Assembly: GCF_002934625.1 (NCBI RefSeq)
Contig: NZ_PTJD01000012.1
Coordinates: forward strand, 62,001-126,000
DNA: 64,000 nucleotides
Direction: 5' to 3'
Origin: Kineococcus xinjiangensis
GTDB lineage: Bacteria > Actinomycetota > Actinomycetes > Actinomycetales > Kineococcaceae
The translations under genes and the position numbers were made by a program. A model generated the notes under the pieces. It had not been told where the DNA came from and made no database searches. It saw only the letters and a program-made list of their open reading frames with translations. Position 1 is the first letter of the stretch, and each line of letters opens with the position of its first letter. Positions 594 through 27,098 of the stretch are shown piece after piece.

Positions 594-3317
594 GTGCCCG
601 ACGGGCCGCAGCAGAGGTCCCCGACGGCGAGCGCCCGGGCCGGGGTGTCTGCGGATCGGGAGTGCGGAGTGAGTGCTGCGGTGCCGCCCAGGGGCGACGA
701 CGAAGCGGTGCGAACCAAGACAGGGGACGCGCAGCCGGGGGAGCTGACGACCCGGCGGCTGGCGACGGTGCGCAGCCATCCGGCCCTGACGCGGCTCGCG
801 GAGCTGGCGGCGCGGCTGACGGGGGCGCCGTGGGCGCAGGTGTCGCTGGGGGCGGACTCGCAGGCCGTGGCCGCCGCGGCGGGTTCGGACGTCAGCGTGA
901 CGGGTGCGGAGGTCCCCCTCGCGGCGGCGCTGTGCGCGGCGGCCGCGACGAGCGCGGGGCCGCTGGTGGTGGCGGACGCCGCGGCGGACGAGCGCGTCGC
1001 GTCGCTGCCGCCGGTGCGCTCCGGCCCCGTCCGCTCCTGCCTCGGGGTTCCGCTGCGCGGCCAGGACGGCACCGTCCTCGGCGCGCTGTGCGTCTTCGGC
1101 CCCGAACCCCGCACGTGGCGCGCGTCGGACGTGGCGCTGCTGGACGACCTCGCCGTCGCCGCCGTCACCGAGCTGGAGCTGTCCGCGCTGGCGGTGCAGT
1201 ACGAGGCGAGCCGCCTGCGCTGGCAACTGTCCATCGAGGCCGCCGGCATCGGCAGCTACGACTGGGACCTGCTCACCGGTGAGCTGGAGTGGGACGACCG
1301 GCTGCTGGAGATGTTCGGCTACGACCGGGCCGGCTTCGGCGGCCGCATCGAGGCGTTCTACGAGCGCGTCCACCCCGAGGACCTGCCCCGGGTCACCCGG
1401 GCGCTGGAGGCGGCGATCGCCGCGTGCGGGGAGTTCGAGGCCGAGTACCGCGTGGAGCTGCCCGGCGTGGGGACGCGCTGGATCTTCGCCCGCGGCCGGG
1501 CGCTGGGCGACGAGAGCGGCAGGGCGGTGCGGCTGCTCGGCGCCGCCTACGACACGACGGCGCGCAAGGACACCGACACCCGCCTGGCCCGGGTGCTGGA
1601 GACGATGTCGGTGGGGTACGCCTCCTACGACCGGCAGTGGCTGATCACCTACGTCAACGCCGAGGCGGAGCGGCTGATCGGGATGTCGCGGGAGGACGTT
1701 CTCGGCCGGAACGTGTGGGAGCTGTTCCCCGCCGCCGTGGGCTCCCCGATCGAGGAGCACTACCGCGAGGCGGTGGCGACGGGGCAGCCGGTGTCGTTCG
1801 ACGCGCACTACCCGGATCCGCTGAACGCCTGGTACGAGATCCGGGCCACCCCGACGCCGGAGGGCCTCTCGGTCTACTTCCTCGACGTCACCGCCCGCCG
1901 CGTCGCCCAGGAGGAGGCCGAGGACGCCCGCCGCGCCGCGGAGGACGCCCGCGGGGAGGCGGAGGCCGCCCGGGAGGGGGCGGAGCGCACCGCGCAGCGG
2001 ATGCAGCTGCTGTCCGGCGTCAACGAGGCGCTCGCCGCCACCGTGGGCCTGGAGGAGGCCGTGGGCCGGCTGGCCCGGCTGGTGGTGCCGGGGCTGGCGC
2101 AGTGGTGCATCGTCAGCGCCGTCGACGACCGGGCCGGCGAGGACTCGGGACGCGGCATGCGCGACCTGGGCTGGTGGCACGAGGACCCGGCGCTGCGCGA
2201 GGTGCTGGAGCGGTACGCGTCGCTGCGGCTGCCCGCGCTCGCCGAGGACGCACCCGCACGGCGCGCCCTCCGCAGCGGACAGCCGGTGCTGGTGCGCGAG
2301 GCAGCCGTGCAGGCGATCGGGAGCGCCCTGCACTCGGCGGAGGCGCGGGCGCTGCTGGCGGAGCTGGCGCCGCGCTCGGTGCTCTTCCTCCCGCTGCACG
2401 CCGGGGGACGGGTCCTCGGGCTGCTGAGCCTCTTCAGCTCCGACCCGGAGCGGCACGCCACGGACGCGGTGGTGGGCACGGGCCTGGACGTGGCCGCCCG
2501 CGCGGGGCTGGCGCTGGACAACGCCCGCCTCTACACCCAGCAGCAGCGCCTCGCGGAGGGGCTGCAGCGCAGCATGCTGACGTCGCCGCCGGAGCCGGAC
2601 CACCTCCAGATCGTGGTCCGCTACCGCCCGGCCGCCCGGGCCGCGCAGGTCGGCGGGGACTGGTACGACGCGTTCCTGCAACCGGACGGCGGCACCGTCC
2701 TCGTCATCGGCGACGTCATGGGCCACGACGTCGACGCCGCCGCGGCGATGGGCCAGATCCGCTCCCTGCTGCGCGGCATCGGCTACTCCAGCGGGGGAAC
2801 GCCCGCGGCGGTCCTGAGCAGCCTGGACGCCACGATGCAGGGGCTCGGGGTGGAGACGACCGCGACGGCGCTCGTCGCCCGCGTCGAGCAGACCGCGGCG
2901 GAGGAGCGAGAGGGGCTGACCCGCCTGCGCTGGTCGAACGCGGGGCACCCGCCGCCGGTCCTCGTCTCCCCCGAGGGCACCGTCACCGTCCTCGACGGCC
3001 GGCACCCGGGGCTGCTGCTGGGGGTGGCGCCGGAGTTCCCGCGCGCCGACTCGGAGCTGGCCGTCGAGCGGGGCAGCACGGTGCTGCTCTACACCGACGG
3101 CCTCATCGAGCGGCGGGGGCAGTCCCTCGACGAGGGCCTGGAGCGGCTCGTGGGGGTGCTCGCCGACCTGGCGGGGGCGGACCTCGACGGGCTCTGCGAC
3201 GGCATCCTCGAGCGGATGCTGCCGGCCTCCCTGGACGACGACGTCGCGCTGGTCGCGGTGCGTCTGCACCCGCAGGACCGGCCCCGCCCGCCCGAGGCGG
3301 GTCCGGCCACCCACTAG
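594..3317 (+). CDS. GAF-PAS-PAS-GAF PP2C (SpoIIE-type) serine phosphatase
   Basis: A cytosolic multi-sensor phosphatase of the RsbU/SpoIIE kind, expected to dephosphorylate an anti-sigma factor antagonist. Domain order along 907 residues: GAF (about 55-200), PAS (about 215-315), PAS (about 330-425), a short charged helix (430-470), GAF (475-640) and the PPM/SpoIIE domain (650-895). The phosphatase motifs are visible: GGDWYD near 687, GDVMGHD near 706, NAGHPPP near 782, YTDGLIE near 833 and a C-terminal DDDVAL, so the metal-binding Asp residues are kept. No membrane segment is seen. The start is uncertain: GTG 594 follows a TATCCT box at 576-581, while in-frame GTG 669 also lies ahead of the first domain. 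The substrate is unknown; a bldG antagonist lies 59 kb away in this window, but pairing them would be speculation. Confidence 0.88.
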   Translation: MPDGPQQRSPTASARAGVSADRECGVSAAVPPRGDDEAVRTKTGDAQPGELTTRRLATVRSHPALTRLAELAARLTGAPWAQVSLGADSQAVAAAAGSDVSVTGAEVPLAAALCAAAATSAGPLVVADAAADERVASLPPVRSGPVRSCLGVPLRGQDGTVLGALCVFGPEPRTWRASDVALLDDLAVAAVTELELSALAVQYEASRLRWQLSIEAAGIGSYDWDLLTGELEWDDRLLEMFGYDRAGFGGRIEAFYERVHPEDLPRVTRALEAAIAACGEFEAEYRVELPGVGTRWIFARGRALGDESGRAVRLLGAAYDTTARKDTDTRLARVLETMSVGYASYDRQWLITYVNAEAERLIGMSREDVLGRNVWELFPAAVGSPIEEHYREAVATGQPVSFDAHYPDPLNAWYEIRATPTPEGLSVYFLDVTARRVAQEEAEDARRAAEDARGEAEAAREGAERTAQRMQLLSGVNEALAATVGLEEAVGRLARLVVPGLAQWCIVSAVDDRAGEDSGRGMRDLGWWHEDPALREVLERYASLRLPALAEDAPARRALRSGQPVLVREAAVQAIGSALHSAEARALLAELAPRSVLFLPLHAGGRVLGLLSLFSSDPERHATDAVVGTGLDVAARAGLALDNARLYTQQQRLAEGLQRSMLTSPPEPDHLQIVVRYRPAARAAQVGGDWYDAFLQPDGGTVLVIGDVMGHDVDAAAAMGQIRSLLRGIGYSSGGTPAAVLSSLDATMQGLGVETTATALVARVEQTAAEEREGLTRLRWSNAGHPPPVLVSPEGTVTVLDGRHPGLLLGVAPEFPRADSELAVERGSTVLLYTDGLIERRGQSLDEGLERLVGVLADLAGADLDGLCDGILERMLPASLDDDVALVAVRLHPQDRPRPPEAGPATH

Positions 3318-3371
3318 CCGAGCCGTCGTCCAGCCCCGCCCCCGCTCCCGCCCCGCCCCGCCGGACCCTCG

Positions 3372-3407
3372 CCCCGGCAACGGAAAGGACCCTTTCCGTT
3401 GCCGGGG
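3372..3407. terminator. Perfect 17-bp hairpin after the phosphatase gene
   Basis: Arms 3372-3388 and 3391-3407 are exact inverted repeats around a 2-base loop (core GGAAAGG/CCTTTCC). There is no U tract, as is common in high-GC actinobacteria. It follows the phosphatase stop by about 55 bases. Confidence 0.65.
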
Positions 3408-3413
3408 AGGCCT

Positions 3414-3447
3414 CCCCACCCCGGAAAGGGTCCTCTCCGGGGTGGGG
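3414..3447. terminator. Second hairpin in tandem
   Basis: Arms 3414-3425 (CCCCACCCCGGA) and 3436-3447 are exact inverted repeats. The loop side carries GAAAGGG/TCCTCTC, resembling the core of the hairpin just upstream. The two together look like a double terminator separating the phosphatase and cyclase genes. Confidence 0.55.
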
Positions 3448-3534
3448 TCGGGCGCACGAGCCGGCCACGGAGCGTGGCGGATCCGGCGGACGGGGGACCT
3501 CAGGCGGCGGCGCGGGCGTGCCGATCACCGGAGT

Positions 3535-5406
3535 GTGAGACTCCTCCGCGTCGTCGGCCCCGGAGCGGGCGCCCCTCCGGGCTCCCGCGGGTCCAGCCTG
3601 CTCGGAGCCGTGCGCGGCACCGTGCGCAGCCTCCTGGCGGCCGTCGTGGGGGCCGTGCTCCTCATGCTGACCGTGACGACCTACGTGCTGGGCGTCACCC
3701 AGCCGCGCGTGCAGGACTACACCGCGATCACCCGTGAGCTGCGCGTGAGCCACGAGGCGATGCTCGACCAGGAGACGGGCCTGCGGGCGTGGCTGGCCAC
3801 CGGTGACCGCAGGTTCCTGCAGCCCTACGAGTCCGGCCGCGACGCGGCGGCGGGGGCGCAGGCCCGGCTGCGCGGGCACCTGCACGCGGACGACGAGCTG
3901 GCCTCGCGGCTGGTGGACCTCGCGCTGGCGCAGCAGTCGTGGCAGCAGCAGTGGGCGAAGCCTGCGCTTCAGCGGCCCGTGGGTGCGCCCGTCGCGGACA
4001 CCGCGCGGTTCCTGGTGCAGGGCAAGGAGAGCTTCGACGTCTACCGGCGGGTCTCCGCCGACGCGGTGGCGGTGTCTGCGGCGGGCCGCGATGCGGCGAT
4101 GCGCGTGCAGCAGCGCGCGCTGCAGGGCCTCGCGCTGTCCCAGGTGATCCTGGGGGCGCTGGCCGTGGCGGTGCTGCTGCGCCGCACCCGCCGGCTGGTG
4201 GAGCTGCTGGAGGCGCCGGTGCAGCTGGTGGAGGGCGCCATCGCCCGCATCCACCGCGGCGAGGTGCTGGGTGACCTGCCCGCCTCCGGCGCGGGGGAGC
4301 TGGACGACGTGGTCGCGGCCCTGGTCCAGCTGTCGCAGGACCTGGACCGCGAGCGCGCCACCTCCCAGGCGCAGCAGGCGGACGTGCGCCGTTCCCGCGA
4401 GCAGCTGGAGGCGGTGCTGGCCGCGGGCCGTGCGATGGCCGCCTGCACCTCCTCGGCCGCGCTGGCGGGCCTCGTGGTGCGCAGCAGCGCCGAGCTGACG
4501 GGTGGGCTGGGGTCGCTGTGGGTGCGCACCGAGCAGGGGCCGCACGGCTGCGTGGCGTGGTCGGACCCGTTGCAGGCGTGCACCGACGAGCACGCGGAGG
4601 TGGTGGCGGCCGCGGCCACCGACGGCCGCCGGCGCGAGGGGCCGGACCACGTCGCCCTGCCCCTCATCGGGTCCGGGCAGGTGCTCGCCGTCCTGCACGT
4701 CGCCTTCCCCGACGCCCTGGCGGACGGGGCGGGGACGCCTGCGGGCTGCACCGCGCTGGAGACCCTGACCGTCAGCGCGGCGGCGCACTGGGAGGCGGTG
4801 CAGTTGCACGAGGCCACCCGCGAGCGCGCCGCGAAGGACCAGCTCACCGGCCTCGGGAACCGCCACACCATGCAGGAGGAGATGTCGGTGGAGTGGGCCC
4901 GCAGCACCCGGCACGGGCGCCCGCTGAGCCTCGGCATGATCGACCTGGACCACTTCAAGAAGATCAACGACACCGGTGGGCACCTGGCCGGCGACGCCTG
5001 GCTGAAGCTCGTCGCCGAGGTGGTCGGTGCGCAGCTGCGCTCCTCCGACCGCGTGTACCGCTACGGCGGCGAGGAGATCGCCGTGATGCTGCCGGAGACC
5101 GCGGAGGACGACGCCGCGGTCCTGTTCGAGCGCATCCGCGCCGCCATCGAGGGCGTCCGGGGCCCGGACGCGGCGCCGTCGGCCACCGCGAGCATCGGCG
5201 TGGCGGAGCTGCGCCCGGGGATGCTGGAGCCGGAGGACCTCATCGGCAGCGCCGACCGCGCCCTCTACGCGGCGAAGCGGGCGGGGCGCAACCTCGTCGT
5301 GCGCGCCGGGGTGCTGGAGCCGGGGCGGCAGGACCCGCAGCCGACGGGAGCCGGCGCCGAGCGCGTGGGCGCGGAGCGGGTGGCGGACGGCGCCGAGGGG
5401 CGCTGA
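3535..5406 (+). CDS. Membrane-anchored GGDEF diguanylate cyclase with CHASE3-like, HAMP and GAF regions
   Basis: Predicted to make cyclic di-GMP from two GTP at the membrane. From GTG 3535: membrane segment about residues 29-52, an extracytoplasmic helical region with the CHASE3-like pattern LDQETGLRAWLATGDRRFL, a second membrane segment about 199-215, a HAMP-like linker to about 270, a GAF-like domain (about 300-430) and a GGDEF domain from about 436 to the end. The active-site signature is GGEEI near residue 511, with substrate residues in DLDHFKKIND. The inhibitory I-site RxxD is present as RSSD about six residues upstream, so product feedback is likely. The long open frame reaches back to 3442, inside the terminator hairpin, so a later start (GTG 3535, or GTG 3610 after GGAG) is more credible. 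Confidence 0.85.
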   Translation: MRLLRVVGPGAGAPPGSRGSSLLGAVRGTVRSLLAAVVGAVLLMLTVTTYVLGVTQPRVQDYTAITRELRVSHEAMLDQETGLRAWLATGDRRFLQPYESGRDAAAGAQARLRGHLHADDELASRLVDLALAQQSWQQQWAKPALQRPVGAPVADTARFLVQGKESFDVYRRVSADAVAVSAAGRDAAMRVQQRALQGLALSQVILGALAVAVLLRRTRRLVELLEAPVQLVEGAIARIHRGEVLGDLPASGAGELDDVVAALVQLSQDLDRERATSQAQQADVRRSREQLEAVLAAGRAMAACTSSAALAGLVVRSSAELTGGLGSLWVRTEQGPHGCVAWSDPLQACTDEHAEVVAAAATDGRRREGPDHVALPLIGSGQVLAVLHVAFPDALADGAGTPAGCTALETLTVSAAAHWEAVQLHEATRERAAKDQLTGLGNRHTMQEEMSVEWARSTRHGRPLSLGMIDLDHFKKINDTGGHLAGDAWLKLVAEVVGAQLRSSDRVYRYGGEEIAVMLPETAEDDAAVLFERIRAAIEGVRGPDAAPSATASIGVAELRPGMLEPEDLIGSADRALYAAKRAGRNLVVRAGVLEPGRQDPQPTGAGAERVGAERVADGAEGR

Positions 5407-8207: not shown

Positions 8208-8640
8208 TCACTTCAGCCAGAGCAGAGGCGAGGCCAGTAGCAGCGCGGCGCGGTTGGCGAGCTGGTCATCGCGTTCCGGGATCGTGACGGCGATCCCGCG
8301 GGAGGCGAGGTAGTGGCGGTTGGTGCGGGAGCTGTAGCCCTCATCGCCGACGACTCGATCGGGGGGACGGGTTCTGGGCCGTCCTGGGCTGCGACGAAGC
8401 ACGCGAATCCGGCTGAGCAGGGTCGGCAGAATGGTGGTGGGGGTACCGCCCGCTTGCGGGGGAGCGTTGATGTTGCCGGCGGTCAGCACGATCGCCGGCG
8501 GGCGGCCGCGCCCGTCGACAGCGAGGTGGGTCTTGGTCGTTCCCCCGCGAGCGGGAGGTGCCCCCTCCGTCACCACACCGCACTCGGCGGGCTACCGCCC
8601 GCCTCCCGCGTCACCAACCTCAGTGGTCAGAACACCTAGT
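8208..8640 (-). pseudogene. Remnant of an IS5-family transposase
   Basis: The minus strand (GTG 8576 to 8208) encodes 122 residues with clear transposase signatures: GGTTKTHLAVDGRGRPPAI, then DRVVGDEGYSSRTNRHYL and SRGIAVTIPERDDQLANR. These are the central DDE region of IS5-type enzymes. The sequence lacks the N-terminal third and stops in a hydrophobic tail (LLLASPLLWLK) where the family continues to the last catalytic Glu, so it cannot be active. I found no terminal inverted repeats. It lies between the kinase gene and the histidine kinase gene and touches neither frame. Confidence 0.75.
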
Positions 8641-9970
8641 TCCGCCCCGGCTGCCGCTGCGGGATCGTGAAGCGGATGACGGTGCCGCCGCTGGCGCCGT
8701 CCTCCGCCCAGATGCGCCCGCCGTGTCGCTCGACGATGCGCTGGCAGGTCGCCAGCCCGATGCCCTGCCCCGTGCGGGCCGCCTGCTCCAGCATCGCGGA
8801 CAGGCTGAAGAGGCGCTCGCGCTCCCCGGGCGGGATGCCCATGCCGTTGTCGGCGACGGAGAACACCCAGCGGTCCTCGCTGAGCTCCGCGCTGACCTTG
8901 ATGCGGCAGGGGTGCTGCGGGGAGCGGTGGTCGAGGGCGTTGCCGATGAGGTGGCGCAGGAGCTGCTGCAGCAGCACGGGGTTGCAGTGCACCTGGGGCA
9001 GGCCGTCGCTGACCACCCGCGCCCCGGTGCCGCGCAGCCGCCCGCGCAGGTCGAGCACGGCCTGGTCGAGGACCTCCCGCACCTCGGTGAGTTCCCGGGG
9101 GTGCTCCGAGGCGCCGGCGTGCGCGTGGGCGAGGAGCGCAGTGATGAGCTCCTGCATCCGCAGGGTGCCGCGCAGGGCCGCGTCGATCCACTCGTTGGCC
9201 CGTTCGTCCAGGGAGTGGCCGTGGACCTCGCCGAGCAGTTCCAGGTACCCGGCGACCGCCCGCAGCGGCGAGCTGAGGTCGTGGCTGGCGACGGCGGCGA
9301 ACTCCTCCAGGTCGGCGTTGGAGCGCGTCAGCTCCCGCACGGTCTCGTCGAGCTCCTCGCCGCGCTCGCTGAGCCGGTCGTGCGCGGCGCGCAGGGCCTC
9401 CTCCCGGGCGCGGTCCACGGTGACGTCGGTGAGCGTCACCGCGGCGCCCAGGACGGTGCCGTCGGGGCCGGTGAGGGCGCGCCCTGAGCAGACGACCGTG
9501 GTGGTGGGGGCGTCGGGGGGAGCGATGACGACCTCCTGGCCGCTGACCTCCCCGTCGTGCAGGGCGCGGTGCAGGGGGGAGCGGCGGGCGCTGAGGCGGG
9601 TGACCCCGTCGACCTCGTACACGTGGCAGCGCTCCGGTGCGGGCACGGCCGCGTCGGGGGCGTCGGCCTCCGTGCCGTGCCAGCGGCGGGCGGTGCGGTT
9701 GACCAGGGCGATCCGCCCGTCGGGACCGGCCACGAGCACCCCGACGTCGAGGGACTCCACGGCGGCCTCCAGCAGCGCCCGCCGCGACTCCGCCGCCGCG
9801 AGCTCGGCGCGGGCCGCGTCGCGCTCGGCGAGGGCCTCGGCGAGGGCCTCGCCCAGCGCCACCTCGAGCGGGCCCGGGCCCTCGACCGCCACCGGCCGCA
9901 CGGCCGCCACCGGTCCCGGGAGGGCAGGCTCGCGCCGGGCTGCCGGCCCCGCCGCCTTCCTCGCGCTCAT
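8636..9970 (-). CDS. PAS-domain sensor histidine kinase, soluble
   Basis: A 444-residue cytosolic histidine kinase. It has a coiled N-terminal helix, a PAS domain (about residues 65-190, with LLEAAVESLDVGVLVAGPDG), a helical linker, a HisKA domain with the phosphoacceptor in ASHDLSSPLRAV (His near 230), and a HATPase domain with the N box HLIGNALDH, DNGMGIP and GQGIGLATC. No membrane segment is present, so the signal is probably internal. The start is ATG 9970 (GGAG five bases upstream); the open frame extends further to 10291 but with weak start signals. No response regulator lies beside it, so it is an orphan kinase. It is divergent from the sugar-binding protein gene at 10222. Confidence 0.85.
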   Translation of the reverse strand: MSARKAAGPAARREPALPGPVAAVRPVAVEGPGPLEVALGEALAEALAERDAARAELAAAESRRALLEAAVESLDVGVLVAGPDGRIALVNRTARRWHGTEADAPDAAVPAPERCHVYEVDGVTRLSARRSPLHRALHDGEVSGQEVVIAPPDAPTTTVVCSGRALTGPDGTVLGAAVTLTDVTVDRAREEALRAAHDRLSERGEELDETVRELTRSNADLEEFAAVASHDLSSPLRAVAGYLELLGEVHGHSLDERANEWIDAALRGTLRMQELITALLAHAHAGASEHPRELTEVREVLDQAVLDLRGRLRGTGARVVSDGLPQVHCNPVLLQQLLRHLIGNALDHRSPQHPCRIKVSAELSEDRWVFSVADNGMGIPPGERERLFSLSAMLEQAARTGQGIGLATCQRIVERHGGRIWAEDGASGGTVIRFTIPQRQPGRN

Positions 9971-10221
9971 GCCGCTCCAGTTCCGCGGCCACCGCCGTCT
10001 CGATGGCGGTGCCGTTGCAGTCACCGGCGACTCCGCCGGGCGGGGTGGCGCAGTCCACCCACCCGTGATCATCGGTCCGGGGCCGGAGCCGCTTGAGTCG
10101 GCCGTCCGGGCGACGTCCGACCGGGGGAGGGAAGGCGCTCCTGGATGCTCAACCAGCTCCGGTGCCCTGCCGATGAGGGGACGGGGGGCGCCGGTCCTCC
10201 ACCGATGACGCTGGAGGACGC

Positions 10222-11337
10222 ATGGGCCGCCCCTACGCACCCCGCCCGCACGCGCTGATGCGCCTGGCCGTGGCCGCCGCCGCGCTGGCACTGGCGGGCA
10301 CCGCCTGCTCCAGCCCGGCCGCCACCGTCGAGCCCGCCGCCGTGACGAGCAAGGGCACGATCGGGATCGCGATGCCCACCAAGCTGTCCCAGCGGTGGAT
10401 CTCCGACGGGGAGAACATCGTCAAGCAGTTCGAGGCGCTCGGTTACGAGACGGACCTGCGCTTCGCCGACGACGACGTCCAGGAGCAGATCGCGCAGATC
10501 GGCGACATGGTCGACAAGAAGGAACGGGCCCTCGTCGTCGGGGCCATCGACGGCTCGCAGCTGAAGGCGGTGCTGCAGAAGGCGGCGGACGCGGACATCC
10601 CCGTCATCTCCTACGACCGGCTCATCCGCGACACCCCGAACATCGACTACTACGCGACCTTCGACAACTTCAAGGTCGGCGTGCAGCAGGCCGGGGCCGT
10701 CGTGCAGGCCCTCGAGGGCGCCGGCCCCGGCCCGTTCAACGTCGAGCTGTTCGCCGGTTCCGCCGACGACAACAACGCCACGTTCTTCTTCAACGGGGCG
10801 ATGAGCGTCCTGCAGCCGCACATCGACTCCGGCCGCTTCGTGGTGCGCAGCGGGCAGACGCAGTTCGCGGACGTCGCCACCCAGCAGTGGAGCGGCGACG
10901 TGGCGAAGGCCCGCATGGAGGGGCTCCTCGCCGGCACCTACTCCTCCGCACGGGTGGACGCCGTGCTCTCCCCGTACGACGGGATCACCCGCGGCATCCT
11001 CGACGCGCTGAAGAGCGCGGGCTACGGCCCCGGCGGCAAGCCGCTGCCGGTCCTCACCGGCCAGGACGCCGAGCTGGACTCCGTGAAGCTCATCGCCGGC
11101 GGCGAGCAGACCCAGACCGTGTACAAGGACACCCGGGAACTGGCCAAGGTCGCGGTGCAGATGACGAACTCGCTGCTCACCGGAGGCACCCCGATGGTGA
11201 ACGACACCGAGCAGTACGACAACGGCGTCAAGAAGGTGAAGACCTTCCTGCTCCAGCCGGTCAACGTCGACGCCACCAACTACGAGCGGATCCTCGTCGA
11301 CGGCGGGTACTACACCGCCGAGCAGGTCAAGGGCTGA
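10222..11337 (+). CDS. ChvE-like sugar-binding lipoprotein (periplasmic binding protein family)
   Basis: A 371-residue exported lipoprotein: basic start, hydrophobic signal segment and lipobox LAGTAC (Cys near residue 28). The rest is a type I periplasmic-binding fold, beginning [20 protein letters not shown], with [30 protein letters not shown] and [15 protein letters not shown]. These match the ChvE/multiple-sugar binding group. The start ATG has GGAGG nine bases upstream. No ABC permease or ATPase gene is near. Only 46 bases and no terminator separate it from a chemoreceptor gene, which suggests a role in taxis to a sugar rather than uptake, as with Agrobacterium ChvE. The ligand is unknown. 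Confidence 0.82.
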
Positions 11338-11383
11338 GGCTCCCGATGACGACCACTCCCCCCGCATCCCAGGAGCCCCGCGC

Positions 11384-12994
11384 ATGAGCACCCCGACCGC
11401 CCCCGCCCGCAGCGGGAACCGCATCGCCGCGGCGTTCACCGACCTGCCGGTGCGCAAGAAGCTCACCGTGCTCGTCGCTGCGTCCCTGCTGGCGCTGTCC
11501 ACCTGTCTCGGCGTGACCACCTACAACGGCCGCATCGCGGACGCCACGGCCACCCAGCTGAAGGACCTCAACCTCGCCGGTGCGACCGTCCTGCAGCTCG
11601 ACCGGGTCGCCAGCGAGCTGAAGGTGAACGGGCTGCAGGCCATCGTCCGCGAGGACCCCTCGGTGCAGGGGGCCCTCCTCCAGGACAAGATCACCGACGC
11701 GGAGGCCCTCCTCGCCGAGCTGAAGGCCGTTCCGCTGCCGGAGGCCGAGTCCGCGGCCGTCGACCGCCTCACCGGCGTCTACGCGGAGTACACCACCACC
11801 ATCAAGGCTTACGTGGCGGGAGCCGCGCAGGACCCCGGCGCGGCTCGGCTGGCGTGGGAGCAGATCGACGTCGACAACTACCTCGTGAGCGCCGTCCTGG
11901 CGAACGAGCGGGCCCTGTTCGCGGACACCATCGCCCGCGCCGAGACCGCGGCGAACGAGAGCCGCACCCGCGCGGAGCAGGTCATGTGGGTCGCCGTCGG
12001 CATCGCCGCCGTCCTGCTGTGCGTGCTCGCCCACGTCGTCGTCACCTCCATCACCCGGCCGCTGCGCCTCGTGCGGAAGTCGCTGCTGGCGATGGCGGAC
12101 GGCGACCTCACGGTGCCCGCGCCGGTGACCTCCCGCGACGAGGTCGGCGTCATGGCCCGCGCCCTGGAGGAGGCCCAGACGGGCGTCCGCTCGGTGGTCG
12201 CGTCGGTGTCGGCGTCCGCGCACTCCGTCGCCGCCGCGGCGGAGGAGCTCGCCTCCACCTCCGACACCATGGCGACCTCCGCCAACCTGGCCGCCTCCCA
12301 GGCGCAGGGCGTCTCGGACGCCGCCGGGCTGGTCTCCGGCAACGTGTCCACGGTCGCCAAGGGCGCGGAGGAGATGGGCATCTCCATCGGGGAGATCGCC
12401 CACAACGCCAACGAGGCCGCCCGGGTGGCCGCCAGCGCCGTGAGCGTCGCGCAGGCGACGACCGCGCAGGTCGGCAAGCTGGGTGACTCCTCCCGCGAGA
12501 TCGCCACGGTCGTCGGCGTCATCACCTCCATCGCGGAGCAGACGAACCTCCTGGCGCTGAACGCGACGATCGAGGCCGCCCGCGCCGGTGACTACGGCAA
12601 GGGGTTCGCGGTCGTCGCCAGCGAGGTGAAGGAGCTGGCGCAGGAGACCGCGCGCGCCACGGAGGACATCTCCGCGCGGGTCCACGCCATCCAGACCGAC
12701 ACCCAGGGCGCGGTCACCGCGATCAGCGAGATCTCCTCGATCATCGCCCAGATCAACGAGTACCAGACCACCATCGCCAGCGCGGTGGAGGAGCAGACCG
12801 CCACGACCGGTGAGATGAACCGCAGCGTCTCCGCGGCGGCCGAGGGCGCGGGCGGCATCGCGGCGAACATCGCCGGCCTCGCCTCGGCCTCCCAGGTGAC
12901 CACCGACGGCGTCCTGCAGTCGCAGCGCGCCGCCACCGAGCTCAGCGCGATGGCGCACGAGCTGCAGTCGCTGGTCTCCCGCTTCCGCTACTGA
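11384..12994 (+). CDS. Methyl-accepting chemotaxis protein
   Basis: A 536-residue transmembrane chemoreceptor. Layout: cytoplasmic tail, membrane segment about 26-48, an extracytoplasmic four-helix-type sensor region (about 50-205), a second membrane segment about 206-228, HAMP (about 229-281) and the long signalling coiled coil. The conserved hairpin tip reads [18 protein letters not shown] and then [18 protein letters not shown], so CheA/CheW contact should be intact. The C-terminus ends FRY without the NWETF-type pentapeptide, so it would rely on other receptors for CheR tethering. ATG 11384 follows AGGAG. Its placement just after a binding-protein gene suggests that the loaded lipoprotein docks on the sensor region. 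Confidence 0.9.
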
Positions 12995-13000
12995 GGTCGC

Positions 13001-13035
13001 GCCCACCGCGTGCCGATCCCCGGCGCGCGGTGGGC
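13001..13035 (+). terminator. Terminator hairpin after the chemoreceptor gene
   Basis: Exact 10-bp arms GCCCACCGCG (13001-13010) and 13026-13035, beginning seven bases after the stop codon. It may serve both this gene and the convergent small gene. Confidence 0.5.
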
Positions 13036-13049
13036 CTCGGCGGTGGGCC

Positions 13050-13271
13050 TCAGCGCCAGAGCCGCCGGCCCGCGCGGTAGCCCCGCGCGAAGGACCCGCC
13101 CCGCCTGCGCCGCCGCTCGCCGCGGCCGCCCCGTCCGACGCCGGCCAGGGACAGCAGGCCGGCGGCCAGGGCCAGGGAGAGCCGCAGCACGAGGGCCGTC
13201 ATCCGCAGCGTCACGACCGCGAGCGCGCCGAGGAGGCGCAGCAGCCCCGTCAGGGCGTCGCCTGCCGTCAC
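13050..13271 (-). CDS. Small membrane protein with arginine-rich tail
   Basis: A 73-residue protein: a hydrophobic stretch about residues 8-46 that could form one long or two short membrane helices, then a very basic tail with RRRRRGG and RAGRRLWR. The GTG start has a clear ribosome site (GGGAGGT, five bases ahead), which favours a true gene despite its length. It converges on the chemoreceptor gene. I do not recognise the family and assign no function. Confidence 0.5.
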   Translation of the reverse strand: MTAGDALTGLLRLLGALAVVTLRMTALVLRLSLALAAGLLSLAGVGRGGRGERRRRRGGSFARGYRAGRRLWR

Positions 13272-13462
13272 GTCCGACCTCCCGCCCGATGCCGTCCACC
13301 CGTCCCCGGCCCACCGGGCCGGGGACCATCCTCACCCGCGGGACCCCGTTCGGGCCAGCCTCAGCCGGTCCCGGTCCCGGTCCCGGTCTCGGCGCGGGGC
13401 AGCGGCGCTGCAAGGTTTCCAGCCCGCCCCGCCCAGCACTGGACGCCGGCTGCCACCCGCTG

Positions 13463-13468
13463 CACGAT
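13463..13468 (+). promoter_or_regulatory. -10 box CACGAT for the PfkB gene
   Basis: Exactly six bases upstream of ATG 13475; no ribosome site in between. It decides the start among several in-frame candidates. Confidence 0.5.
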
Positions 13469-13474
13469 CTGCCG

Positions 13475-14365
13475 ATGCCACGAGTGCACGTCATCGGCCC
13501 GGTGTCCTGGAACCTGCTCGTCCACGTTCCGGAACTGCCCGAGCCGCGCCCCCACACCGTCTTCGCCGAACGGCACCACGAGACGCTGGGCGGGACCTCC
13601 GCAGGCAAGGCGCTGAACCTGCGCCGGCTCGGCGTCGACGTGACGCTCTCCACCCTGCTCGGCGACGACGCCGCGGGGGAGCGGGTCCTGCGAGAACTGC
13701 GCGGCGCCGGCGTCCAGGTCCTCGCCCGCCGCAGCACCGAGGGCACCGAGCGGCACGCCAACCTCATGGACGCGAGGGGGCGCCGCCTGTCGGTGTACCT
13801 CACCCTCCCCGAGGCCGCGCCCGACACGACGGGGGAGTGCCGCGAGCGGCAGCGCGCCGCGATCGCCGCGGCCGACGTGGTCGTGGCGGACCTCGCCGAC
13901 CACACCCGCGCCGCCCTCCCCGCGGCACGGGCGGCCGGCAAGGAGGTCTGGTGCGACCTGCACGACTACGACGGCTCCAGCACGTTCCACGAGGAGTTCC
14001 TCGCCGCCGCGGACGTGGTGTTCCTCAGCGACGAGCGCCTCGCCGACCCGGAGGCCTTCGTGCGGGCGCAGGTGGCGGCGGGCAAGCGACTGGTGGTCTG
14101 CACGCAGGGAGCACGCGGCGCCCTCGCCGCGGAACGGGGCGGGGAACTGCGCCACGTGCCCGCCGCGGAGGTTCCCGAGGTGGTCGACACCAACGGCGCC
14201 GGCGACGCCTTCTTCGCGGGTTTCCTCGCCGCGAGCCTGGACGGCGCGGGGCTGGAGGAGTGCCTGCACCGCGCCACCCTCAGCGCCGCCGCCTGCCTGG
14301 CCTCGTGGGAACTGGCAGGGGCGCCGCCGGCGGCGGGGGAGTCGCAGGGCCTCGTCCCGGCGTGA
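13475..14365 (+). CDS. PfkB-family carbohydrate kinase
   Basis: A 296-residue ribokinase-fold sugar or nucleoside kinase. The N-terminal PfkB pattern is seen in LGGTSAGKALNLRRLGVDVTLSTLLGDDAAGERV, here altered by a Ser-Ala in place of the usual Ala-Asn-Val. The C-terminal signature VDTNGAGDAFFAGFLA carries the catalytic Asp and anion hole near residues 240-247. The substrate is not evident. The next gene starts 21 bases downstream with its own -10 box, so the pair may not depend on one transcript. Confidence 0.82.
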   Translation: MPRVHVIGPVSWNLLVHVPELPEPRPHTVFAERHHETLGGTSAGKALNLRRLGVDVTLSTLLGDDAAGERVLRELRGAGVQVLARRSTEGTERHANLMDARGRRLSVYLTLPEAAPDTTGECRERQRAAIAAADVVVADLADHTRAALPAARAAGKEVWCDLHDYDGSSTFHEEFLAAADVVFLSDERLADPEAFVRAQVAAGKRLVVCTQGARGALAAERGGELRHVPAAEVPEVVDTNGAGDAFFAGFLAASLDGAGLEECLHRATLSAAACLASWELAGAPPAAGESQGLVPA

Positions 14366-22162: not shown

Positions 22163-23401
22163 TCAGCCGGTCGTGGCGGCGGGTTCCCCCGGTCGAGCCG
22201 GCGCCGGCTCCAGGGGGGCGCGCCCGCTGCGGTCGAGCCACCCCGCGAGCGCCGCCACCGCCAGTCCGGTCAGGGTGAGGCCGGCCGCGACCACCATCGG
22301 GGAGCGGTACCCCAGGCCCGCGTCGAGCACGAGCCCGCCGAGGAAGGCCCCCATCGCGTTGCCGATGTTGAACCCCGCCTGCTGCGCCGCCGCGACCATG
22401 CTCGCCCCGCCCCCGGCGGCGACGATGGCGCGGGTCTGGATCGCCGTGGACATCGAGAACCCGGCGAAGCCGAACGCGAACACCGCGGCCGCCGCCACGA
22501 CGGGACGTCCGCCCGCCACGGCGAACACGGCGAAGACGCCGGTCTGCGCGCACAGCCCCAGCAGCAGCGTGCGCGGCACGGACCAGTCCGCCAGCCGGCC
22601 CCCGAGCAGGTTGCCCGCGGTGGCGCCCACCCCGAACAGCACGAGCAGCCACGAGACGCTGCCGGGGGAGTAGCCGGCGAGGTCGGTGAGGATCGGGGCG
22701 ATGTAGCTCAGGACGGTGAAGAGGCCGCTGAACCCGATGACGGTGATCAGCATGGTCAGCCACACCTGGGCGCGGGAGAACGCGGACAGTTCCGCGCGCA
22801 GCCCCGCGGAGGGCGTGCGGACGTCGGGCACGAGCAGCGCCAGCGCGGCGATGGTGAGCAGGCCGATGCCGGCGACGACCGCGTACGTCAGCCGCCAGCC
22901 GTACTGCTGGCCCAGCGCCGTGCCGAGCGGGACGCCGACGATGTTGGCGACGGTGAGCCCGGTGATGGCCAGCGCCATCGCCTGTCCCTGCTTCCCGGGC
23001 GGGGCGAGGTGGCGGGCGACGACGGCGCTCGCGCCGAAGAACGCCCCGTGGGACAGGGCGCTCACGGCGCGGGCGGCGACGAGCAGGCCGAACGTCGGCG
23101 CCAGAGCGGTGGCGACGTGGCCGAGGGTGAAGAGCACCATGAGCCCGATGAGGACGTGCTTGCGCGAGTACCGGTGCGCCAGGGCGGTGAGGGTCGGTGC
23201 GCCGACGACGACCCCGAGGGCGTAGGCCGTGATGATCCAGCCGGCGGTCGGGATGGACACGCCGAACGTGGCGGCCATCTCCGGCAGCAGGCCCATGGCG
23301 ACGAACTCGGTGGTGCCGATGGCGAAGCCGCCGACGGCGAGGGCGAGGAGTGCGAGGGGCACGAGAGGGGCTCCGCGGGAAGTGCTGGTCGTGGACTGCA
23401 C
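22163..23401 (-). CDS. MFS transporter, AraJ/YdhP-like (DHA1 family)
   Basis: A 412-residue major facilitator with about twelve membrane segments. The family pattern is clear: FAIGTTEFVAMGLLPEMAATF in the first helix, AYALGVVVGAPTLTALAHRYSRK (motif A region) in helices 2-3, then SHGAFFGASAVVAR and GVPLGTALGQQYGWR in helices 4-6. These mark the AraJ/PbuE/YdhP branch of proton-coupled drug, sugar or purine exporters. The substrate cannot be told. The start is GTG 23401. The palindromic repeat copy D lies directly upstream, between this gene and the symporter gene, and would be in or near its promoter. Confidence 0.82.
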   Translation of the reverse strand: MQSTTSTSRGAPLVPLALLALAVGGFAIGTTEFVAMGLLPEMAATFGVSIPTAGWIITAYALGVVVGAPTLTALAHRYSRKHVLIGLMVLFTLGHVATALAPTFGLLVAARAVSALSHGAFFGASAVVARHLAPPGKQGQAMALAITGLTVANIVGVPLGTALGQQYGWRLTYAVVAGIGLLTIAALALLVPDVRTPSAGLRAELSAFSRAQVWLTMLITVIGFSGLFTVLSYIAPILTDLAGYSPGSVSWLLVLFGVGATAGNLLGGRLADWSVPRTLLLGLCAQTGVFAVFAVAGGRPVVAAAAVFAFGFAGFSMSTAIQTRAIVAAGGGASMVAAAQQAGFNIGNAMGAFLGGLVLDAGLGYRSPMVVAAGLTLTGLAVAALAGWLDRSGRAPLEPAPARPGEPAATTG

Positions 23402-23486
23402 GACCGCGTCGTTGCGGTGCCTGCGCTGACCACGCTCTCACGCGCTGCGGGGACCGGTCCAACCGGGACGCCCCCGGGCACGCGAA

Positions 23487-23545
23487 CGGGCGGGGACGTT
23501 CGGCAGGCGACACGCCGGTGTGTCGCCGCGGAACGTCCCCGCCCG
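23487..23545. repeat. Palindromic intergenic repeat, copy D
   Basis: Outer arms CGGGCGGGGACGTT (23487-23500) and AACGTCCCCGCCCG (23532-23545) are an exact 14-bp inverted repeat. The inner hairpin GGCGACAC/GTGTCGCC is also exact. It lies between two leftward transporter genes, 21 bases after the symporter stop, where it could also act as a terminator. Confidence 0.85.
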
Positions 23546-23566
23546 TGAGGTGGGGGTGCGGGTCGG

Positions 23567-25120
23567 TCAGGTGAGCGGCGCGGTGTCCTCCTTGGTGATG
23601 TGACCCTTGCGCCGGTGCTCCATGTAGTCGCGCAGTTCCCTCTTCACGACGGGCATCAGCAGGTAGAGACCCGCGATGTTCACGAGTGCGCAGACGAAGA
23701 GCATGGCATCGGCGAGGTTGAGGACCTCGCTGAAGGTCAGCACCGTCCCGACGATCGTGAACAGCAGGTACACGACCTTGAAGATGAGCTCGCTCGTCTT
23801 GGTGCGGCCGAAGAGGTTCGTCCAGGCCTTCTGGGTGTAGTAGCTCCAGGTGATCAGCGTGGAGAAGGCGAACAGCGCCACGGCGATCGCGAGCAGGACC
23901 GGGAACCAGGAGATGACCTCGGCGAAGGCGTCGGAGGTGAGGACGACGCCGTCCTCGCTCATGCTGCCCGTCGCGGCCACCTCGGCGCGGGCGTCCACCC
24001 AGCGCGTCGGGCTCGCGATGATGATCGTCAGCGCGGTCATGGTGCAGATGACGACGGTGTCGATGAACGGCTCGAGCAGGGCGACGAAGCCCTCGGAGAC
24101 GGGGTGGCGGGTCTTCACCGCGGCGTGCGCGATGGGAGCGGAGCCGACGCCGGCCTCGTTGGAGAACGCGGCCCGCTGGAAGCCGATGATGAGCGCGCCG
24201 ACCACGCCGCCGGTGACACCCTCGGGGGAGAAGGCGCCCGCGAAGATGGCGGCGATGGCCGCGGGCACCTGGGTGATGTTGACCAGGATGACCACGAGGC
24301 AGCCGAGCAGGTACAGGATCGCCATGGCCGGGACGAGGCGGGCAGTCACGCGGCCGATGGACTTGATGCCACCGATGATGACCGCACCGACGAGCAGCGC
24401 GAGGACGATGCCGAAGATCAGGGCAGCCACGTCGCTGCCGAGGGGGCCGTCCTCGCCGCCGGTGACGTTGCGCATCTGCGCGTAGGTCTGGTTGGCCTGG
24501 AACATGTTGCCGCCGGCCACGCCGAAGAAGAACAGCCCGATGGCGAAGATGCCGGTGAGCACCTTGCCGACGGCGGGCGGGCCGAACTTCTTGAAGGCCA
24601 CGGGCAGGTAGCGGAAGGGGCCGCCGGTGACGGTGCCGTCCTCGTGGACCTCGCGGTACTTCACGCCCAGGGTGCACTCGACGAACTTGGTGCACATGCC
24701 GAGCAGACCCGCGACGATCATCCAGAAGGTCGCGCCGGGGCCTCCGAGGGTCACGGCGACGGCGACACCGGCGATGTTGCCGAGGCCGACGGTGCCGGAG
24801 ACGGCGCTGGTCAGGGCCTGGAAGTGGGTGACCTCGCCAGGGGCGTCGGCCTCGGAGAAGCGGCCGCGCGCCAGGTCGACGCCGTGCTTGAAGCCGCGGA
24901 CCTGGATGCCCTTGAAGTAGATCGTGAAGATGATGCCCGCGAGGACGAGCCAGCCCACGATGAGCGGGAACGTCGCTCCACCGATGGTGACGGTGTAGAA
25001 GATCACCGAGCTGATGGCCTTGGTGACAGGCGCGAAGACGCTGTCGATCGCATTCTCGATGTTCGCGAGAGCGCCCGTGTCGGGGGCTGCCGCGAGGAGG
25101 AGGGCGCCGGGTAGGGACAT
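23567..25120 (-). CDS. AGCS-family alanine/glycine:sodium symporter
   Basis: A 517-residue membrane protein with about eleven helices, of the alanine or glycine:cation symporter family. Diagnostic runs are FQALTSAVSGTVGLGNIAGVA, GGPGATFWMIVAGLLGM, KFVECTLGVKYRE, GGPFRYLP and the highly conserved GFQRAAFSNEAGVGSAPIAHA. It takes up small neutral amino acids with Na+. ATG 25120 follows a purine-rich stretch (GAGAGAAGG on the + strand's complement is weak), so translation signals are modest. The gap upstream contains an inverted repeat at 25179-25192 that might be an operator. The gene is probably transcribed alone. Confidence 0.9.
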   Translation of the reverse strand: MSLPGALLLAAAPDTGALANIENAIDSVFAPVTKAISSVIFYTVTIGGATFPLIVGWLVLAGIIFTIYFKGIQVRGFKHGVDLARGRFSEADAPGEVTHFQALTSAVSGTVGLGNIAGVAVAVTLGGPGATFWMIVAGLLGMCTKFVECTLGVKYREVHEDGTVTGGPFRYLPVAFKKFGPPAVGKVLTGIFAIGLFFFGVAGGNMFQANQTYAQMRNVTGGEDGPLGSDVAALIFGIVLALLVGAVIIGGIKSIGRVTARLVPAMAILYLLGCLVVILVNITQVPAAIAAIFAGAFSPEGVTGGVVGALIIGFQRAAFSNEAGVGSAPIAHAAVKTRHPVSEGFVALLEPFIDTVVICTMTALTIIIASPTRWVDARAEVAATGSMSEDGVVLTSDAFAEVISWFPVLLAIAVALFAFSTLITWSYYTQKAWTNLFGRTKTSELIFKVVYLLFTIVGTVLTFSEVLNLADAMLFVCALVNIAGLYLLMPVVKRELRDYMEHRRKGHITKEDTAPLT

Positions 25121-25227: not shown

Positions 25228-26865
25228 TCACTCTTCGTGCACCGTTCCGCCTGTCACGCGCCAGCGGCGGGTCGTCGTCACCGCGTCCAGCATCCGCCGG
25301 TCGTGGGTCACCAGCAGCAGCGTTCCAGGGTAGGACTCCAGGGCCTGCTCGAGCTGCTCGATCGCCGGCAGGTCCAGGTGGTTCGTGGGCTCGTCCAGCA
25401 CCAGCAGGTTCACCCCCCGCCCCTGCAGCAGCGCCAGCGCCGCGCGGGTGCGCTCACCCGGCGACAGCTCCGCGGCCGGCCGCAGGACGTGCGCCGCGCC
25501 CAGCCCGAACTTCGCCAGCAGCGTCCGCACCTCCGCCGTCGCCATCTCCGGCACCGCGTCCGCGAACGCCCGCACCAGGGGGTCCGGTCCCAGGAACAGA
25601 CCCCGCGCCTGGTCGACCTCCCCCACGACGACCCCCGCTCCCAGCGACGCCGAACCCGAGTCCGGCGCGAGCCGGCCCAGCAGCGTCGCCAGCAGCGTCG
25701 ACTTCCCCGAGCCGTTCGGCCCCGTCACGGCGATGCGGTCCGCCCAGTCCACCTGCAGGTCCACCGGACCCAGCGCGAAGCCCCCACGCCGGACCACCAC
25801 CTGCCGCAGCGTCGCCACCACCGCCCCGGCCCGCGGCGCGGCGGCGATGCTCATCTGCAGCTGCCACTCCTTGCGGGGCTCCTCGACGACCTCCAGCCGC
25901 TCGATCCGCCGCTCCGTCTGGCGGGCCTTCGCCGCCTGCTTCTCCGTGGCCTCGCTGCGGAACTTGCGGCCGATCTTGTCGTTGTCCTTCACCTTGCGCC
26001 GAGCGTTCTTCACGCCCTTCTCCATCCACGCCCGCTGCGCGTGCGCCCGCGACTCCAGCCCCGTCCGGGTGTCGGCGTACTCCTCGAACTCCTCGCGGGC
26101 GTGGCGGCGCTGGACCTCCCGCTCCTCCAGGTACGCCTCGTAGCCGCCGCCGACCACCCGGACGAGCTGCTGCGCGAGGTCCAGCTCGACCACCCGGTCC
26201 ACCGTCCGGGCCAGGAACTCCCGGTCGTGGCTGACCAGCACGGTGCCCGCCCGCAGCTGCTGCACGAACCGCTCCAGGCGGGCGAGGCCGTCCAGGTCCA
26301 GGTCGTTGGTGGGCTCGTCCAGCAGGAAGACGTCGAACCGGCTCAGCAGCAGCGACGCCAGACCCGCCCGTGCCGCCTGCCCCCCGGACAGCGCCGTCAT
26401 CGGCAGCTCCAGGGAGACGTCGAGGCCGAGGTCGGCGGCCACCTCCGCGCTGCGCTCGTCGAGGTCGGCGCCGCCGAGGCCGAGCCAGCGCTCCAGCGCC
26501 TCGGAGTAGGAGTCGTCCGAGCCCGGCGCGCCCTCGGCCAGCCGCTGCGCCGCGGCGTCCATCGCGTCCTGGGCAGCGGTCACGCCCGTGCGCCGCGCGA
26601 GGAACTGCGCGACCGTCTCGCCCGGCCGGCGCTCGGGCTCCTGCGGCAGGTAGCCGACCGCGGCCGTGGGCGGGCTGAGCGAGATCGAGCCCGCCGCGGG
26701 CGCGTCCAACCCCGCCATCAGGCGCAGCAGCGTGGACTTGCCCGCTCCGTTGGCGCCCACGAGGCCCACGACGTCACCGGGGGCGACGACCAGGTCGAGG
26801 CCGGAGAAGAGGATCCGCTCCCCGTGGCCGGCGGCGAGGTCCTTGGCGACGAGGGTGGCGCTCAC
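25228..26865 (-). CDS. ABC-F family ATPase (ribosome-associated type)
   Basis: A 545-residue protein with two ABC ATPase domains and no membrane part. First domain: Walker A GANGAGKST (near residue 39), signature LSGGQAARAG and Walker B FLLDEPTNDLDL. Second domain: Walker A GPNGSGKST, the weaker signature LSPGERTRAA and LLVLDEPTNHLDL. Between them is a charged helical linker (about 265-330) rich in Arg and Lys (ARRKVKDNDKIGRKFRSEA), the part that reaches into the ribosome in ABC-F factors. Members either tune translation or protect ribosomes from antibiotics; this sequence alone does not decide. GTG 26865 is chosen for its upstream -10 box; the frame extends to 26982 across a terminator. Confidence 0.86.
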   Translation of the reverse strand: MSATLVAKDLAAGHGERILFSGLDLVVAPGDVVGLVGANGAGKSTLLRLMAGLDAPAAGSISLSPPTAAVGYLPQEPERRPGETVAQFLARRTGVTAAQDAMDAAAQRLAEGAPGSDDSYSEALERWLGLGGADLDERSAEVAADLGLDVSLELPMTALSGGQAARAGLASLLLSRFDVFLLDEPTNDLDLDGLARLERFVQQLRAGTVLVSHDREFLARTVDRVVELDLAQQLVRVVGGGYEAYLEEREVQRRHAREEFEEYADTRTGLESRAHAQRAWMEKGVKNARRKVKDNDKIGRKFRSEATEKQAAKARQTERRIERLEVVEEPRKEWQLQMSIAAAPRAGAVVATLRQVVVRRGGFALGPVDLQVDWADRIAVTGPNGSGKSTLLATLLGRLAPDSGSASLGAGVVVGEVDQARGLFLGPDPLVRAFADAVPEMATAEVRTLLAKFGLGAAHVLRPAAELSPGERTRAALALLQGRGVNLLVLDEPTNHLDLPAIEQLEQALESYPGTLLLVTHDRRMLDAVTTTRRWRVTGGTVHEE

Positions 26866-26871
26866 GGCCCC

Positions 26872-26877
26872 ATCGTC
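26872..26877 (-). promoter_or_regulatory. -10 box GACGAT for the ABC-F gene
   Basis: On the minus strand, six bases before GTG 26865. It fixes the start downstream of the hairpin at 26928-26971. Confidence 0.45.
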
Positions 26878-26927
26878 GCAGCCCGCCCGGGCGGTTCCCG
26901 CCGCGAGCCGCTCCGCACGATCCTGAC

Positions 26928-26971
26928 GGGATCCACGGGTGCGACACCTCGGTGTCGCACCCGTGGATCCC
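26928..26971. terminator. Perfect 21-bp hairpin
   Basis: Arms 26928-26948 and 26951-26971 are exact inverted repeats around a 2-base loop (TC). It starts seven bases beyond the stop of the leftward small gene and ends 62 bases before the ABC-F start codon, so it should isolate the two. Confidence 0.8.
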
Positions 26972-26978
26972 GCGGGGA

Positions 26979-27098
26979 TCAAGCGTCCTCGGCCGTCTCC
27001 TCCGGCTCGAAGGTGCTCGGCTCGTCGCTCGCGCCGATGCCCACCCCCGTCTCCGGGTTCGGGATGCCGTTCTTCTCGTCGTCCTCGCGTCCGCTCAT
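26979..27098 (-). CDS. Small acidic protein, 39 residues
   Basis: A short gene, ATG 27098 to TGA 26979. The protein is acidic, with the string NPETGVGIG followed by EPSTFEPEE near the end. I recall similar short proteins with an ETGVG...TFEPEE pattern in other actinobacteria, but cannot verify it here. Support for a real gene: a CAGGCT -10 box exactly six bases upstream of ATG and a perfect terminator seven bases downstream. Function unknown. It has no signal peptide or membrane segment. Confidence 0.62.
   Translation of the reverse strand: MSGREDDEKNGIPNPETGVGIGASDEPSTFEPEETAEDA

Follow-up and report, generated by a model that had tools for sequence, protein, structure and literature searches.

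A ChvE-type binding lipoprotein gene paired with a chemoreceptor gene in Kineococcus and other actinobacteria: a putative module for indirect sugar taxis

The best-known cases of sugar taxis mediated by binding proteins come from Gram-negative bacteria that borrow importer proteins. The chemoreceptors Tar and Trg use importer binding proteins that are free in the periplasm, with Trg pairing with the ribose- and galactose-binding proteins, and Agrobacterium ChvE serves GguA-GguB. The genes for BasB-BasT and CosB-CosT adjoin without an importer, and we know of no importer that XylFII has of its own.

Chemoreceptors and kinases that sense ligands indirectly, by way of binding proteins, are established in archaea and in Gram-negative and Gram-positive bacteria (PMC9602780, PMC6321045). 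In Escherichia coli, maltose-binding protein mediates sugar taxis by docking on Tar, a four-helix-bundle chemoreceptor (PMC9602780, PMC6321045). Since chemoreceptors of Bacillus subtilis have been proposed to be stimulated by binding proteins (PMC6321045), binding-protein input to a Gram-positive chemoreceptor is not a new idea, and CuaD, a clostridial cellobiose-binding protein beside a two-component system, provides a Gram-positive case with a kinase (PMC10384115). In XylFII-LytS of the Gram-positive Clostridium beijerinckii, the binding protein presents sugar to a four-helix-bundle sensor domain (PMC9769921, PMC6321045). GlnH of Corynebacterium glutamicum, an actinobacterial lipoprotein, signals via GlnX, a membrane protein with four-helix bundles (PMC9769921), and in Halobacterium salinarum the binding proteins BasB and CosB copurify with the chemotaxis transducers BasT and CosT (PMC3579733).

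Here we analyze a stretch of 64,000 nucleotides (the window) from a 4.6-Mb draft genome of Kineococcus xinjiangensis, in which a gene for a ChvE-family sugar-binding lipoprotein is followed by a chemoreceptor gene. Although a preliminary description likened this pair to maltose-type sensing, the importer-less systems XylFII-LytS, GlnH-GlnX and BasB-BasT are closer to it. Each nevertheless differs. The output of XylFII-LytS is a histidine kinase, whereas the receptor here is a methyl-accepting chemotaxis protein, and XylFII is absent from the sequence matches of the window's ChvE (E 0.001). GlnH-GlnX recognizes an amino acid and controls the protein kinase PknG rather than chemotaxis (PMC9769921). 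BasB-BasT and CosB-CosT are archaeal and, as described, respond to amino acids and osmoprotectants. The B. subtilis receptors have a dCACHE sensor domain (PMC6321045) and do not form a ChvE pair. Unlike in the Tar and Trg systems, the genes here form a pair without an importer and the binding protein is a predicted lipoprotein. Finally, Agrobacterium ChvE (PDB 3urm) belongs to the same protein family as the window's ChvE, but in the window's genome the GguA-GguB operon has a separate ChvE copy. In the literature searched, which lies outside most subscription journals, we found no published report of a ChvE-chemoreceptor pairing in Actinobacteria. What appears new here is a ChvE copy turned into the dedicated partner of a chemoreceptor; indirect sensing itself was already known.

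The gene pair and its surroundings

The product of the first gene passes the NCBIfam model for the ChvE equivalog, NF040907 (497.5 bits; cut-off 460), contains a Pfam Peripla_BP_4 domain and matches the solved ChvE structure 3urm over residues 43-370. Coordinates, strand and the NCBIfam and Pfam domains (Table 1) agree with the preliminary description of a ChvE-like lipoprotein gene with a complete chemoreceptor gene 46 bases on. That description also held that no terminator separates the two genes, and a consensus scan of 9900-13700 detected neither a terminator-like site nor a sigma-70-type promoter. The two genes are probably made from one transcript. Lipoboxes were scored with a permissive Prosite-type pattern and a stricter G+LPP pattern. 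Six of the eight paired ChvE proteins described below satisfy both patterns, and two (those of the window and of G226b) satisfy the permissive pattern alone. The lipobox of the window's ChvE is non-canonical, and its status as a lipoprotein is a prediction.

Table 1. Features of the ChvE-chemoreceptor locus, in window coordinates
Feature	Position	Strand	Remark
ChvE-family sugar-binding lipoprotein gene, receptor-linked type	10222..11337	+	371 aa
Predicted signal peptide and lipobox, Cys29	10222..10308	+	permissive lipoprotein pattern fits, stricter G+LPP pattern fails
ChvE segment aa 212-256, with all seven receptor-linked losses	10855..10989	+	conservation in 89 versus 8 rows
Intergenic gap, 46 bases, without terminator-like site	11338..11383	+	consensus scan
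Methyl-accepting chemotaxis receptor gene	11384..12994	+	536 aa; HAMP and MCPsignal
Receptor first membrane helix, aa about 24-45	11453..11518	+	by eye: alignment, AlphaFold2 helix 23-88
Receptor extracytoplasmic sensor domain, aa about 46-200	11519..11983	+	predicted four-helix bundle
Receptor second membrane helix, aa about 201-222	11984..12049	+	by eye: alignment, AlphaFold2 model
Receptor HAMP domain, aa 220-267	12041..12184	+	PF00672 over cut-off
Receptor MCP signalling domain, aa 340-500	12401..12883	+	PF00015 over cut-off

The reported absence of ABC transporter genes near the pair holds for the importer types searched. When two ATPases and two permeases of CUT2-type importers were compared with the whole window by tblastn (E 1e-4), a single ORF matched, at 24-32% identity: it encodes a two-ABC-domain protein and lies more than 12 kb from the pair (25228-26982, minus strand). 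Neither GguA nor GguB is encoded directly beside the window's ChvE gene. The nearest identified transporter genes downstream of the pair, at 22163-25120 on the minus strand, encode an MFS permease with a weak Sugar_tr match and a sodium:alanine symporter. Signalling genes cluster upstream, where a SpoIIE phosphatase with GAF and PAS domains is followed by a CHASE3-GGDEF protein (594-5406).

The preliminary description also drew attention to a histidine kinase gene divergent from the pair. This gene is present (8636-10291, minus strand; PAS, HisKA and HATPase domains), with a start that is uncertain because the longest ORF runs over the start of the ChvE gene, but it is not conserved with the pair. 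Since no such gene was annotated upstream of seven of the eight pairs (L031, L032 and L244-L248), we rejected the kinase as a component, and it is probably unrelated.

Conservation of the pair and the whereabouts of importers

From the ChvE side, we surveyed the best 80 of at least 585 ChvE loci. ABC matches occur in 78 of these 80, and in 77 a GguA-like ATPase that is at least 58% identical lies just downstream of ChvE; in L087, the contig ends right after ChvE and the locus has only a distant ABC pair, upstream. The two loci without ABC matches among this best 80 are the two best matches, L031 of Actinoplanes liguriensis and L032 of Amorphoplanes auranticolor, and both have a receptor directly downstream of ChvE. 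In both, the signalling part of the receptor shows 73% identity, over 315 residues in L032 and over 143 in L031, whose receptor gene is interrupted by an assembly gap. Two other loci among the best 80 (L061 and L090) keep an intact importer and have weak receptor matches next to it.

From the receptor side, we searched 394 genomes of the class with the sensor domain alone (window 11471-11998), taking about 1.5 kb on each side of a match, or less at contig ends. Matches were found at 25 places in 20 genomes. Six, in five genomes and including the window, are strong (E < 1e-38), and ChvE lies directly upstream of all six, whereas none of the 19 weak matches (E 1.7e-19 or weaker) has a ChvE match in its locus, the best of them (G401) having been read over 15 kb. 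Together with L031 and L032, the six strong places give eight ChvE-then-receptor pairs in seven actinobacterial genomes, spanning three families (f1, f25 and f37) plus Actinoplanes. In all eight, the binding protein gene comes first on the same strand, with gaps of -35 to 237 bases that depend on uncertain gene starts. Co-occurrence of the two genes in related genomes, which the preliminary description had proposed as a check, is thus borne out by these eight pairs and by the split between strong and weak matches. We rejected a chance neighbourhood, since the two best of the 80 ChvE loci carry a receptor and every strong sensor-domain match adjoins ChvE. Dedicated coupling of lipoprotein to receptor is well supported by these comparisons; this part of the proposal that the two proteins form a signalling unit stands, backed by the conserved pairing and by the separate grouping of the paired ChvE proteins described below.

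The module is rare. Strong sensor-domain matches occur in five of the 394 genomes of the class, in G226 alone among 297 genomes drawn from its family, three times among five genomes of another family and, in a draw of 396 genomes from the phylum, only at the window's own locus; the class, family and phylum draws overlap, and their counts are not additive. A sequence search of plasmids with the sensor domain gave no match. In 20-kb stretches around five pairs (L244-L248), no close relatives of GguA or GguB were called. The ABC ATPase matches found there do not adjoin the pairs, and their identity is 25-33%, except for a match at the extreme edge of L248 with 41% over 63 residues.

If the paired ChvE has no importer beside it, could it serve one encoded elsewhere? 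The preliminary description had named such a transporter as a finding that would tell against it, and here the evidence is divided. The window's genome encodes a second ChvE, 60% identical to the paired one. Downstream of this second ChvE come GguA and GguB, both scoring above their respective NCBIfam cut-offs, and upstream lies a gene that, by eye, encodes a LacI-type regulator. Thus, an importer for a ChvE-type protein exists in the window's cell, with a binding protein of its own. Moreover, six of the seven genomes with a pair have a GguB over the cut-off, so that double use is possible: the paired ChvE could still feed a GguAB importer encoded elsewhere while also serving the receptor, in the way that maltose-binding protein serves Tar. 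We regard this as unlikely, since the importer owns a separate ChvE gene and the receptor-linked ChvE proteins form a group apart, with losses at transporter-conserved residues (see below). In addition, G057, a genome given as 100% complete, has a pair whose ChvE is its only one and no GguB over the cut-off. Its best permease match to GguB scored 156.8 bits (cut-off 450), and so other permeases exist in G057 and could serve.

Ten genomes, seven with a pair and three without, contain 21 ChvE matches at E 1e-60. For 20 of these, the neighbour is a receptor in 8 cases, an importer gene in 10 and neither in 2. In a quick tree, one of the latter two groups with the transporter-linked type. The other, a lone ChvE in G104 (L279:1495-2547, minus strand), is 79% identical to the receptor-linked ChvE of the same genome and groups with the receptor-linked type.

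In G226, the pair is duplicated (L247:8976-11945 and L248:8297-11100), and one of the two copies lies about 23 kb from GguB and the ChvE that belongs to the importer. Between the two copies, protein identity is 98.7% for the receptors and 75.1% for the binding proteins, and DNA identity is 98.9% and 85.5%, respectively. Either the receptor was kept constant while ChvE diversified, or gene conversion homogenised the receptors alone. Both readings are compatible with a receptor that reads a docking surface and a ligand chosen by the binding protein, which is a fit and not proof.

Divergence of the receptor-linked ChvE proteins

In a maximum-likelihood tree of 106 binding proteins, a branch with support 72/96, present in 77% of bootstrap trees, separates the eight receptor-linked ChvE proteins from the transporter-linked ones (78 + 11, including the second ChvE of the window's genome and counting L087 as transporter-linked). 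As the tree tool marks six of the eight receptor-linked rows as long branches, the separate grouping is moderate evidence.

Residues were compared over 98 rows, consisting of the 8 receptor-linked and 89 transporter-linked proteins and one ChvE kept apart (Kin_G011a); the 8 rows from receptor-first pairs, described below, were left out. At 74 positions the receptor-linked and transporter-linked groups are identical, and these include the YDR, DNN and QD motifs, which we take to be sugar-pocket motifs. Ninety positions are conserved in at least 98% of the transporter-linked rows, and at seven of them (Q212, L221, R222, Q229, Y240, Y252 and S256) half or more of the receptor-linked rows have lost the residue. 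The number of losses is unremarkable for the divergence, because a control set of ten transporter-linked rows of Kineococcus type, about as divergent, loses 10 of 101 positions, scattered from 94 to 346; seven other, less divergent ChvE groups lose 0 to 2. Since the control rows lose as many positions, only the clustering of the losses counts: the seven span 45 residues, and in a test run on the receptor-linked group alone, 7 of 100,000 random draws were equally tight. Six of the eight receptor-linked proteins score over the NF040907 cut-off of 460, and the other two reach 453.1 and 458.2. From these sequence comparisons, we infer that the paired ChvE was recruited from transport to signalling, presumably with loss of transport.

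The neighbour of the ChvE kept apart in these counts is a histidine kinase gene whose product has a NIT sensor domain (L187:1-3393, minus strand), and this ChvE gene has no importer. The protein has lost eight conserved positions, among them N184 and, shared with the receptor-linked proteins, L221 and Q229.

The receptor sensor domain and a putative route from sugar to flagella

No Pfam sensor-domain family (4HB_MCP_1, TarH) was detected in the receptors of the window (E 0.001), L032 or L244, and in L248 the 4HB_MCP_1 match falls under the cut-off (E 0.024). With a lax limit, hmmscan gave only chance matches to the window-type sensor domain, and a sequence search of solved structures with the sensor-domain alignment found nothing better than a transcription factor at E 0.019. 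An AlphaFold2 model, made from nine sequences (the eight pairs and G401), is a helical bundle with four long helices (mean pLDDT 81.3, pTM 0.63), and we predict that the sensor domain is a four-helix bundle. The model matches the folds of kinase and chemoreceptor sensor domains (4k0d, Vc1313, PcaY_PP, MCP2201, Tar, Tsr and LytSN), with Z 14-16 for the chemoreceptor domains and, for LytSN of the XylFII-LytSN complex (PDB 5xsj), Z 14.6 and rmsd 2.2 over 120 residues. Because four-helix bundles resemble many helical proteins, and designed bundles also reach about Z 15, these matches speak to the fold alone and not to kinship.

Across the eight pairs, mean conservation is 0.79 in the membrane-far half of helix 1 and 0.83 in that of helix 4, compared with 0.53-0.60 in the other parts of the domain; the first membrane helix averages 0.77. 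Docking, dimerization or direct ligand binding could each equally explain the patch on helices 1 and 4. Maltose-binding protein contacts Tar near the membrane-far end. XylFII contacts helices 3 and 4 of LytS (PMC9769921). Sensor-domain identity correlates with binding-protein identity (0.66), but shared descent and the duplicated pair of G226 confound this value, and we give it no weight. A distant likeness to the window's sensor domain was also seen in one (3330-4937) of three chemoreceptor genes in a row at L249:1-4937 on the minus strand.

Many four-helix-bundle receptors bind ligands themselves, and the nearest solved folds include receptors that sense small ligands directly (Tsr, PcaY_PP, MCP2201 and Vc1313). 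The receptor might therefore sense a ligand such as an amino acid or an organic acid on its own, and ChvE would be a neighbour with a separate task, perhaps as a co-regulated surface protein. We give this explanation little chance given the strict coupling of the strong sensor-domain matches to ChvE across the three families and Actinoplanes.

The best reading of the locus, and one that we hold to be probable, is a two-gene module for indirect sugar taxis in which the ChvE lipoprotein docks on the receptor. The lipoprotein would be anchored at the outer surface of the cell membrane, where it would bind a monosaccharide; the sugar-loaded protein would dock on the chemoreceptor encoded next to it, at the predicted four-helix-bundle sensor domain, and the docked receptor would alter CheA activity to steer the flagella. 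We infer the sugar ligand, docking, taxis and the sign of the signal, the first three from what is known of these protein families.

Kineococcus species form zoospores that are motile under some conditions (PMC2587704), and sugars have been reported as attractants of Actinoplanes zoospores (PMC3569393). Some zoospore-forming actinobacteria have chemosensory classes that go beyond flagellar motility (PMC10746217), and one can envision a sugar sensor that works through another type of chemosensory array and has an output other than swimming. Such an output is highly improbable here, as the signalling domain is an ordinary Pfam MCPsignal domain and the window's genome has two flagellin matches, one at a contig end, and 15 matches to the paired receptor, some of them incomplete.

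As a module for sugar taxis, the conserved importer-free pair would offer a clean two-gene Gram-positive system for studying signal transfer from a membrane-tethered binding protein to a chemoreceptor and would allow one to ask how a transport protein becomes a sensor. It also bears on which receptor serves the reported sugar taxis of Actinoplanes zoospores.

A second arrangement occurs in the window's own family, where 8 of the 11 other genomes (G001, G002, G005, G006, G007, G009, G010 and G011) contain receptor-first pairs, in which a receptor gene is followed by a gene for a XylF-like binding protein (L198 and L200-L206; e.g., L198:7486-10282). The match in G003 is on a 3.2-kb contig, too short to judge pairing, and G004 and G008 lack a XylF-like protein of this kind. 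These binding proteins form their own clade in the tree of 106 (100/100), and the four that were scanned (L198, L200, L204 and L206) are related to XylF and ChvE but fall far below both cut-offs. A simple gene caller, which overlooked some genes, called no importer genes in 18-kb stretches around the pairs. In all three receptors scanned, the sensor domain is Pfam 4HB_MCP_1, which bears a remote likeness to the window's domain (hhalign probability 95.5). Thus, importer-less sugar-binding proteins have been joined to chemoreceptors at least twice here.

A broader view, which we put forward tentatively and with the balance slightly against it, is that ChvE acts as a pure sensory adaptor in some actinobacteria, including the zoospore former Actinoplanes, with one receptor offering a fixed docking surface to interchangeable, diverging ChvE lipoproteins, and that the pairing of orphan sugar-binding proteins with chemoreceptors arose more than once. 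The idea of interchangeable ChvE proteins comes from the near-identical receptors with 75%-identical binding proteins in G226 and from the lone extra copy in G104; that of repeated origin comes from the receptor-first XylF-like pairs.

Another pair was seen in G001, on a 175-kb contig, where a receptor gene is followed by a gene for an RbsB-like binding protein (109.8 bits; cut-off 337) at L199:6422-9170 on the minus strand, with a permease-like ORF about 6 kb off.
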